A stretch of 64,000 nucleotides of DNA from Planctomycetota bacterium (GTDB lineage Bacteria; Planctomycetota; UBA1135; UBA2386): NCBI GenBank assembly GCA_947444055.1, contig CANEYR010000010.1, positions 1-64,000 on the forward strand, given 5' to 3'. Every line of letters starts with the position of its first letter. Position 1 is the stretch's first letter. Positions 1-3,840 of the stretch are shown one piece after another. The notes under the pieces are model-generated. The model saw nothing but the letters and a program-made list of their open reading frames with translations, was not told the origin of the DNA and searched no databases. Position numbers and translations under genes: made by a program.

Positions 1-69
1 ATCAACAAACCTCTGCAGGTCCACCAGCTCGGTGACATCCCGGCCGAGCTAGCCTCGGCTGCTCAGTAA
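1..69 (+). CDS. 3' end of an unidentified gene (partial)
   Basis: An open frame enters from the left edge and ends at TAA (67-69), giving 22 residues that end in LGDIPAELASAAQ. Composition is protein-like, but the piece is too short to assign. It could be the true end of a gene beginning upstream of the window or a chance open frame; only the flanking sequence would tell. Confidence 0.35.
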   Translation: MNKPLQVHQLGDIPAELASAAQ

Positions 70-470
70 TCTTCTCTTCCGCGTGTCTCATTCACGTTGA
101 CACGTTCCGACCAACCTGCGCAGCAACGCTGTCCACGAACAGCACAACCGCTGCACTGCAAAGGACACGAGACGAATGGCGAAGCAATCGGTGCATGGTC
201 AAACCCCGCGTGCACTCTGAACACGAAACGACGTTGCTGTCAATCTGCGGACCGCCGAAGGGCCGAAGGTGATCGGGTTCGCCAGCATCGGCATCGTGGT
301 CGTGTTCGAGATCCGGCTGACCTCGGCCGTTCGCCCACGCAACGATCGGGCTCAGAGTTCAGCCACAACGAGGGAGTAGGAAAAACAAGCTGCGGTCCCG
401 AACCTCCCGGATACCCGTCCAGCGCCAGTCCTTTAACTCCGCCCCTAGTGTAGTGGCGGCAGCCGCCGGC
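70..470. other. stretch without a recognisable gene
   Basis: About 400 bases follow the first stop codon. Open frames exist on both strands but none gives a recognisable domain, and their composition (runs of R, P, S) looks like GC-rich non-coding sequence. It lies beside the IS91-type remnant, so it is probably eroded mobile-element or gene debris. I see no promoter, repeat or RNA gene in it. Confidence 0.4.
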
Positions 471-474
471 TTCG

Positions 475-800
475 CCTTCCTCTGCCACACGACGCGGCAC
501 TACCCGCGATCGCAATCCCGACGCCGGTGCCAGCACCCCGTGGTACGTCACCAGTGGAAGTGCACGTTGAGCCGCAGCCCCGAATCGAAGCGCTGCACGA
601 ACGCCACTGCGCCAGCCCGCGGTCGCGGCACGGCCGACCGCTTCGCCATTCGCTCGTAGAAGCCCGACACCGCGCGCACCAGCACACCGCGCACCACAGC
701 GCACGCCGCCGCTGCGTCCTACGCGCACAGCGTCCGCACCCGATACGGCAGCGACAGCACCCATTGCCGCACCGGGAGCCAAGGCTTGGCACCGCTCGGC
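475..800 (-). pseudogene. IS91-type (Y2) transposase remnant
   Basis: Reading the minus strand from about 786 down to 548 in one frame gives VRQWVLSLPYRVRTLCA, a TAG stop (719-721), then VRGVLVRAVSGFYERMAKR and VAFVQRFDSGLRLNVHFH, then TGA. A second frame (about 545 to 490) continues with TYHGVLAPASGLRSRVVP. These are the order and wording of the IS91/ISCR-type transposase: the VRQWVLS-P block, the QRF-S-LNLNVHFH block and the later YHGV-AP block. The roughly 100 or more residues normally between VHFH and YHGVLAP are missing and the frame changes there. The N-terminal zinc-binding domain is not visible. The gene is dead: one nonsense codon, one internal deletion/frameshift and lost ends. Confidence 0.8.
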
Positions 801-894
801 GACGCCGACCTCTCGCGCTTGCGCGCTAAGCGGACAACCCTGAAGCACTCATCACCGACCGCGGCACCGAGGCGCTGCGTTGAGTCGCGTCACT

Positions 895-1120: not shown

Positions 1121-3664
1121 TCAGAAGCTGCCGATCGTCAACTGCAGCGCATTGGTGGCCGTCACCGCGACGATCTGCGGGGAGGCATCGAACTCGATCG
1201 GCACCAGCTGCTCGTACACCACCATGCCGGCGAGCGACGGTGTGTTTGGCAGCGCGATCGCGACGTCCGCGACGCCGGCGGAACTCAGCACGAACGACGT
1301 GACGTCCGGCGCGGCGCGCAGCACGCAGCCGCTGCCGGCCTGCGGGAACAGCGACAGTAGCGGCAGCGCAGTTGGCGCAAAGCCGACCACGTGCATGACG
1401 AAGGCCGTCAACGGCAACCCGCTGGCATGCGCGCGATACAACGAACCCGTCCACGGCAGCGTCGTGGCGACCAGCGTGTTGGTGCCGCCGGAGCTCAAAC
1501 AACCTGCCCCGGCACTCGCGATGCTCGCGGGGCAGTCGGTCGTCAGGCGCGCTACACAACGTGACACGGACTTGTCGACAGCGGTGAACTGGCCGCCGAC
1601 CAGCACGTCGCCATCGCCGAGCACCAGCATGGCGTTGACGCGGTCGTCCATGCCGGTGCCGAGCGACGTCCACTGCGTGCCGTTCCAACGCGCGATCCGG
1701 CCACCGAGCTGGGGGCTCGTGGGCGCGATTCGGCTGCCGGCAAGCAGATCCCCGTTCGGCAGCACCGCCAGAGTGTTGACCGAATCGTCGCTGAACATGC
1801 CGAGCGGCGACCATTGCGTGCCGGTCCATCGCACGACACGGCAGGCGCTCCATCCCGCGACGGTGAAGTCGCCGCCAGCAACGAGGTCACCGTTCGTTTG
1901 CTGAGCGAAGGCGCGTACGCCTTGGGAGCCGGTGGTCAGGCCGGGGAGCGGTGACCAGACGGTGCCGTTCCACCGCGCGACGCTGTTTGCCGGCAGCCCA
2001 TCCGCGGTCGTGAAGTTGCCCCCGGCGAGCACGTCGCCGTTTGGCAGCACGTGCAGCGCGAACACGGTCAGGTTGAAGCCGCCGCCGAGTGCGGACCACG
2101 TGCTGCCGTTCCAGCGGGCGATGCAGTTCGCCATGGCGCCGCCGGCCGTCGGCATCACGAAGTTGCCGCCGACGAGCACATCGTCATTCGGCAAACGCGC
2201 CACCGCCCACACGATGCCGTTGGCGCCAGCCCCTAGCGGCGACCAGATCGAGCCATTCCAGCGCGCGACGTGGTTCGCCGGCACGCCGCCGGCCGTCGTG
2301 AACGCGCCGCCCGCGACCACGTCGCCGTTGCTCAGCGTGACCACCGCGCTGACGCCGCCGCCGAGTCCGCTGCCGAGCGGCGACCACAACGAACCGTTCC
2401 AGCGCGCGATGTAGTTCGCGAGGCCGTCAGGAGTGCGCTCGAAGTTGCCGCCGACGATGACGCTGCCGTCGGGATGCGCAGCGAATGCCATCACTTGAGT
2501 CAGTGACAGGCCGCCGCCTTCGAAGCTGTTGGTCAGCGCGGACCACGTGCTGCCGTTCCAGCGCGCGACGTTGCGTGCGGGCACGCCATCCGCGAGCGAA
2601 AAGACGCCACCGACGATCAGGTCGCCATTGGGCAGCGTGGTGAGGGCGCTGGCGTAGCCGTTGAGGCCGGTGCCGTAGCCCGACCACGTGGTGCCGTCCC
2701 AGCGCGCCAGTCGATGGGTCGGGCCAGGGCCGTAGAACGAGAACCAGCCGCCGGTGACGACGTCGCCGTTGGGTAGGGTCAAAAGCGCGAGCACGCCGTT
2801 GGTGAACGGCGCGCCCAGCGGCGTCCACTGGGCACCAGTCCACTGCAGCACGCGGCCCACGATAGGGAGCGGGCTGGAGTTCCACGTCGCGTACAGGTTG
2901 CCGGTCGCGGCGAGCGCGAGCCCAGAGACGTAGCCTCCGCTGAGGCCTGAGCCATGGTCGGTCCAGCTGCTGCCATTCCACAGCGCCGCGCCGGTGGCGA
3001 GTGTCGTTCCTGCGAGCGTGAACGCGCCAGCCACGAGCAGATCACCAGTCGGCAGAGTCAGCAGGTTGCGCACCCACCCATTCGTGCCGCCGCCTAGCGG
3101 CAGCCAATGGTTGCCGTCCCAGCGCGCTAGGTTGTTCGCCGGGAACCCGCCCGCGCTGTCGAATGCTCCGCCGACGACGAGGTCGCCGTTCGGCAGCGTC
3201 GCGAGCGCCGACACGGAGTTGTTCAAGCCGACGCCGAGCGGCGACCACTGCGTGCCGTTCCAGCGGGCGATGCGGTTGGCGGCGATGCCACCCGCGGAAG
3301 TGAAGTCGCCGGCGGCAATCAGGTCGCCATTCGGCAGGCTCAACAGTGCGTTGACACTGCCATCCATGCCGGTGCCCAATCGCGACCAGACACCGCTAGC
3401 CGGATCCCATGCCGCGATGCGATGGGCTTGCACGCTGCCAGCGACGGTGAAGTTGAAACCGGCGAGCACGAGGCGCTGCTGGGCTGGGCCGGCCGCATCT
3501 GGATCCCACATGGTGGCGGCACGGACCTGCCCGTTGGTGCCGCTCAAGGGCGCGCCCGGCAACCAATCGTTCTCGCACTGTGCGGATAGCAACCCTGTGC
3601 TGCAGATCAGCACAACCATGGTGGTGGCGCCCCGGTGAATTGCGATCAGGCGCGTGGCTTTCAT
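1121..3664 (-). CDS. secreted NGD/ARWNG-repeat (propeller-like) protein
   Basis: 847 residues with an N-terminal signal peptide (start MKATRLIAIHRG, hydrophobic stretch ending at LLSAQC). From about residue 60 to 700 there are about 13 repeats of 45-50 residues, each with the pattern LPNGDL-GG-F--AGG--AN-ARWNG--W-PLG, as expected for WD/Kelch-like beta-propeller blades. The last 130 residues form a repeat-free beta-rich domain typical of the ends of secreted planctomycete proteins. The probable role is extracellular or cell-surface binding; no catalytic residues are seen. The many near-identical blades imply recent internal duplication and make the gene prone to assembly collapse. It reads towards the pseudogene debris at 475-1118. 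Confidence 0.88.
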   Translation of the reverse strand: MKATRLIAIHRGATTMVVLICSTGLLSAQCENDWLPGAPLSGTNGQVRAATMWDPDAAGPAQQRLVLAGFNFTVAGSVQAHRIAAWDPASGVWSRLGTGMDGSVNALLSLPNGDLIAAGDFTSAGGIAANRIARWNGTQWSPLGVGLNNSVSALATLPNGDLVVGGAFDSAGGFPANNLARWDGNHWLPLGGGTNGWVRNLLTLPTGDLLVAGAFTLAGTTLATGAALWNGSSWTDHGSGLSGGYVSGLALAATGNLYATWNSSPLPIVGRVLQWTGAQWTPLGAPFTNGVLALLTLPNGDVVTGGWFSFYGPGPTHRLARWDGTTWSGYGTGLNGYASALTTLPNGDLIVGGVFSLADGVPARNVARWNGSTWSALTNSFEGGGLSLTQVMAFAAHPDGSVIVGGNFERTPDGLANYIARWNGSLWSPLGSGLGGGVSAVVTLSNGDVVAGGAFTTAGGVPANHVARWNGSIWSPLGAGANGIVWAVARLPNDDVLVGGNFVMPTAGGAMANCIARWNGSTWSALGGGFNLTVFALHVLPNGDVLAGGNFTTADGLPANSVARWNGTVWSPLPGLTTGSQGVRAFAQQTNGDLVAGGDFTVAGWSACRVVRWTGTQWSPLGMFSDDSVNTLAVLPNGDLLAGSRIAPTSPQLGGRIARWNGTQWTSLGTGMDDRVNAMLVLGDGDVLVGGQFTAVDKSVSRCVARLTTDCPASIASAGAGCLSSGGTNTLVATTLPWTGSLYRAHASGLPLTAFVMHVVGFAPTALPLLSLFPQAGSGCVLRAAPDVTSFVLSSAGVADVAIALPNTPSLAGMVVYEQLVPIEFDASPQIVAVTATNALQLTIGSF

Positions 3665-3719: not shown

Positions 3720-3840
3720 TCACAGTGTCTTCAAGAACTGCACGAGATCCAAGCGCTGGTCGCCGGTGAGGCCGAGCTTCCTGACCCCGTCGTAGTGGTC
3801 GACAACCGCGGCTTGCGTCGCGGCGCGTTCCCTCGTTGTT
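3720..3840 (-). pseudogene. C-terminal remnant of a cytochrome c gene
   Basis: On the minus strand, between maf and the repeat protein, a frame ends with AAVVDHYDGVRKLGLTGDQR and then LDLVQFLKTL and TGA (3720-3722). This is the usual end of planctomycete cytochrome c peroxidase/DUF1549-neighbour type proteins (VVDHYD-G-, L-LT--E--DLV-FL-TL). Upstream the frame closes at about 3840, and other frames show HDG-like debris up to about 3960 but no intact haem motif. Only the last 35-40 codons survive. A living gene of related type lies at 4668-5789 on the other strand. Confidence 0.65.

Follow-up and report, generated by a model that had tools for sequence, protein, structure and literature searches.

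Broken pieces of a transposase lie near the left end of a contig from a Planctomycetota bacterium, and the question that they raise is what kind of mobile element left them, how much of it is still present and whether it has shaped the DNA around it. The window that we analysed comprises the initial 64 kb of contig C10 (81,101 bp), from an assembly of 5.35 Mb in 237 contigs. Positions 372 to 775 on the minus strand are very probably the dead remnant of an ISCR-like element of the IS91 superfamily, once inserted by rolling-circle (HUH) transposition and with its oriIS pointing left.

Extent and composition of the remnant

The following pieces can be recognised in and next to the remnant:

372-414 (minus strand): oriIS (3′) end, matching the 3′ termini of other copies
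372-385 (minus strand): conserved tail within the oriIS end, TTTTTCCTACTCCC, matching the 3′ termini of other copies
386-389 (minus strand): CTTG within the oriIS end
394-414 (minus strand): worn hairpin within the oriIS end; 6 of 7 consensus hairpin pairs are kept in the window's row of the alignment
415-453 (minus strand): degraded joint, placed by the positions of the flanking matches in L045
454-554 (minus strand): transposase C-terminal piece, reading LVTYHGVLAPASGLRSRVVPRR onward (DNA identity, tblastn)
554-775 (minus strand): transposase middle piece, PVRQWVLSLPYR...VHFH, with the HUH motif (DNA identity, NCBIfam NF052416, tblastn)
776-826 (minus strand): possible worn continuation toward the transposase N-terminus, uncertain, aligning with L044 only

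The middle piece starts with PVRQWVLSLPYRVRTLCA, crosses a single TAG stop codon at 719-721, contains one 3-nt insertion and reaches LRLNVHFH. The C-terminal piece (554-454) is read in a different frame beyond a deletion junction at 554, and both the HUH block and the YHGVLAP block are retained. This agrees with the earlier note on this DNA, which described three blocks in two frames with one stop and a deletion: the first two share the minus-strand frame interrupted by the TAG, and the third lies past the 554 junction. The span given there, 475 to 800, does hold fossil sequence but needs correction on both sides, with the oriIS end, which had gone unreported, starting at 372 and homology stopping on the 5′ side at 775 in most copies (826 against L044 alone). 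To the left of 372, comparison with the other copies reveals a flank unrelated to the element.

The claim in the same note that a broken IS91-superfamily transposase is present also stands. An 82-aa piece, with X at the stop, matches NCBIfam NF052416 (ISCR clade Ia transposase) with an E-value of 8.7e-14. When the proteins of six relatives were searched against the 64-kb window by tblastn, similarity rose well above background, with E-values down to 7e-31 for 784-554 and of 1.6e-14 for 554-429 (L048 protein). The best match of these proteins elsewhere in the window has an E-value of 0.030. As previously stated, no intact element is seen there. At the DNA level the pieces are homologous to other copies, with order and strand preserved, at 79-91% identity: 84-86% to L045 and L053 for 554-775 (80-86% depending on the copy compared) and 79-91% to L045, L066, L048 and L051 for 454-554. 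Together with an oriIS end common to transposase-carrying copies and an open transposase frame in a same-genus genome (L044, in G006:C83) that matches PF14319 and PF04986, these matches are the reason for reading the stretch as a remnant. Chance similarity was considered and is ruled out by the NF052416 match, the tblastn scores and the DNA identity to copies. Counted against the remnant reading are that Pfam leaves the short transposase pieces unmatched, that the relatives score well under the NF052416 and NF033538 cut-offs, that the window hairpin folds no better than shuffled sequences, and that no terIS boundary was found in relatives.

Relative to the near-full copy L045 (G022:C54), window positions 775-554 align with 94-312 and positions 553-454 with 896-995 of its reverse complement. 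The 583 bp lost at 554 account for the change of frame between the pieces, and a further ~490 bp of L045, covering the transposase C-terminus and 3′ non-coding sequence, are absent between 454 and 404. We infer the nick site and the route of transposition from living relatives, in which a single-tyrosine HUH transposase would nick oriIS near the hairpin and CTTG, and one strand would be displaced toward terIS and then copied into a new site. The window copy has been destroyed by the stop codon, the two internal deletions and the loss of its 5′ end, that is, the zinc-binding N-terminus and terIS.

Alternative explanations and class of the element

It is improbable that the assembly joined different repeat copies wrongly at 554 and 415-453 and that no single fossil of this shape exists. 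Misjoins might be expected in a 237-contig assembly in which many contigs end in repeats of this family, the fossil lies 372 bp from the contig end, and no other copy with the 554 junction was seen in 41 genomes (at most 15 candidates scored in each), but both pieces differ from every copy found (best identity 86% and 91%), they are collinear with the oriIS end on a single strand, and the piece has a stop codon of its own. The lack of a second copy across the 554 junction, with the absence of the 5′/terIS end, also speaks against a derivative with internal deletions that, although non-autonomous, was mobilised by a transposase acting in trans, an explanation that the oriIS end kept beside shortened transposase pieces would suit and that we regard as highly unlikely.

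ISCRs have a single catalytic tyrosine, and IS91 inserts beside a fixed tetranucleotide target. There is very little to be said for deriving the remnant from a canonical IS91 element with two tyrosines, even though PF04986 and PF14319 match the relatives and the genome has a protein with two tyrosines (KYLARY) on contig C11. In place of the two catalytic tyrosines, four residues apart, of IS91 proper, the closest relatives keep a single one (ALCRY or KLCRY in the three that were aligned), and the ISCR clade Ia model gives them higher scores than the IS91 model does; the fossil has lost that region. According to PMC5714925, IS91 requires both tyrosines. As a separate observation, the two-tyrosine IS91-type transposase frame of the own genome (L001, G000:C11:44472-48029) matches PF04986 with 214.9 bits, over the cut-off.

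Returning to the ISCR-like remnant, the relatives share with IS91 the zinc-binding and Y2_Tnp domains (above both Pfam cut-offs in L044 and L057, above one of them in L045) and a polar layout with oriIS at the 3′ side. They differ from it in the single tyrosine, in NF033538 scores (22-72 bits) under the cut-off of 125, and apparently in the DNA beside oriIS, where the bases past the conserved tail vary among ten identical ends and no constant tetranucleotide is found. With ISCRs they share the HUH transposase, an oriIS located 3′ of the transposase and the single tyrosine, and NF052416 is their best curated model (E = 3e-76 for L057), although they are distant from it by score (165-257 bits, far below the curated cut-off of 925). 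Given this single tyrosine in the transposase of the relatives, at the place of the two in IS91, the element appears better called ISCR-like than IS91 proper, with the tyrosine count of the fossil presumably that of its relatives; the original label "IS91-type" is thus right at the level of the superfamily but not for the closest relatives. Helitrons resemble the element as rolling-circle HUH elements with a hairpin near the 3′ end (PMC4778049), but they are eukaryotic, and the relatives studied here gave no match to a helicase domain.

The oriIS end

The transposase-carrying copies L066, L045 and L048 have a common 3′ terminus ~150-170 bp beyond the stop codon, of which a worn version is found in the window at 372-414. 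It is composed of a hairpin (GGTTCCGG-loop-CCGGGACC), GCWGCTTG, three variable bases and TTCCTAYNCSC, after which unrelated sequence begins. An oriIS end with a hairpin 3′ of the transposase gene is thus a trait of the superfamily present in the copies and in the window alike. Across 32 aligned ends the hairpin positions pair in 98.6% of cells, against 68-69% when the partner is slid by one base, and two of the seven pairs show changes on both sides, counts that are suggestive only, as the ends are related sequences. The 32 rows were drawn from 52 distinct matches, with nine of the ten identical ends of the own genome entered as one row; matches without the CCT tail were omitted, and none of those counted against the hairpin. 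Single-strand folding of the window hairpin is no better than that of shuffled sequences (z 0.36), nor are the ends of L111, L066 and L048 above shuffles, and those of L124 and L088 are modestly so.

A promoter-like stretch precedes the hairpin in unworn copies of oriIS. The promoter-like score of the ends is 6.76 vs 5.35 for shuffles, in copies that are related and so not independent evidence, and the spacing, as read from the alignment, is not retained in the window copy. In intact copies this sequence may act as a promoter. The direction of the ends relative to genes showed no clear bias among the 41 scored (24 sense, 16 antisense, 1 undecided), by a crude codon-position score on ends chosen by hand from those fetched. 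In the literature, oriIS and terIS ends that differ from each other and contain secondary structure are described for IS91 and ISCR (PMC13393415) and outward promoters for the oriIS region of ISCR1 (PMC6218425), and the conserved oriIS end with its promoter-like stretch fits this picture. No published account of the present element was found among titles and the beginnings of abstracts, which does not prove that there is none.

The earlier proposal to look in relatives for an intact copy and both of its ends was successful in part: the open transposase frame in G006 and the oriIS end were located, but on the 5′ side of relatives a search and two scripts gave a common start of similarity and no clear boundary for terIS.

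Other copies and signs of movement

Matches to window positions 360-860 were obtained in 23 of 41 genomes (the own genome and 40 relatives), nearly all of the same family. The own genome has 20 matches at E ≤ 0.001 including the window itself (query 1-1120; 40 of 129 first-look candidates scored). Ten of its oriIS ends are 100% identical over 71-140 bp and sit at contig ends (G000 contigs C235, C212, C183, C122, C237, C229, C221, C218, C180 and C214; for example L111:1-147), with unique sequence beginning directly past the conserved tail and no element interior assembled with them. These ten identical ends at contig ends suggest that a sister element in the same genome probably moved recently, this being the effect that a recently amplified element is expected to have on a short-read assembly. 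Planctomycetes are listed among the insertion-sequence-rich phyla (PMC9208149).

Relatives of one such transposase among named records include a Planctomycetota MAG (JAEUHP) at 83-100% and, at 38-55%, MAGs labelled Planctomycetota, Gemmatimonadetes, Deltaproteobacteria, Myxococcota and others. It is conceivable, if rather doubtful, that an ISCR-like family still active in a Planctomycetota genus spreads its oriIS ends as portable units of promoter plus hairpin, many of which have no transposase found next to them, and that the window fossil is a worn example.

The fossil is a real but ordinary genome fossil that adds little itself; its value is as a pointer to an oriIS end conserved throughout a bacterial family and to indications that a single-tyrosine ISCR-like element, probably in Planctomycetota, has moved recently. 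Of greater interest is this sister element beyond the window, which seems to have been active not long ago. According to PMC6218425, no ISCR had been shown to transpose as of 2018, and an apparently active relative could for that reason be a useful test system.

Surroundings of the remnant

To the left, the fossil is preceded by a truncated reading frame, of which the 3′ end is present (1-69, plus strand). To the right, an intact beta-propeller gene of 847 aa (1121-3664, minus strand) with Rax2/DUF5122 matches faces the fossil with its 3′ end and is followed by maf and then a mauG-like gene. The idea in the earlier note that the element explains an eroded region at 1-4 kb does not hold in view of this intact gene and of an element footprint in the window of ~0.4 kb. 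At eight maf places in seven relatives, the mauG-like gene is alongside maf in four and the beta-propeller gene in none of the DNA fetched, in which several contigs ended too soon. As the beta-propeller gene is missing beside maf in all of this fetched DNA, the stretch at 1-3.7 kb may be peculiar to the present lineage.

Several minor observations were made along the way. The beta-propeller (delta-60/DUF5122) family is large: at E ≤ 1e-20 the own genome gives 44 matching stretches and the relative G005 gives 108. A short frame at 3725-3840 (minus strand), ending in RERAATQAAVVDHYDGVRKLGLTGDQRLDLVQFLKTL and a stop, looks, when inspected by eye, like a di-haem cytochrome C-terminus and gave no match to the mauG-like protein of the window. 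Positions 173-191, left of the fossil, and 634-652, in the transposase piece, form a 19-nt inverted repeat (89%), which may be due to chance or to a second tiny fragment. Among the other copies, one of the ten identical oriIS ends adjoins the frame of an older copy of the transposase in L050 (G000:C212, ~135-150), which looks like one element inserted into another, and in L124 (130-200, G001:C81) the final 20 bases of the oriIS end, TGCTTGGACTTCCTACGCGC, are present as a tandem duplicate, the arrangement that insertion of an element at the end of another would give.
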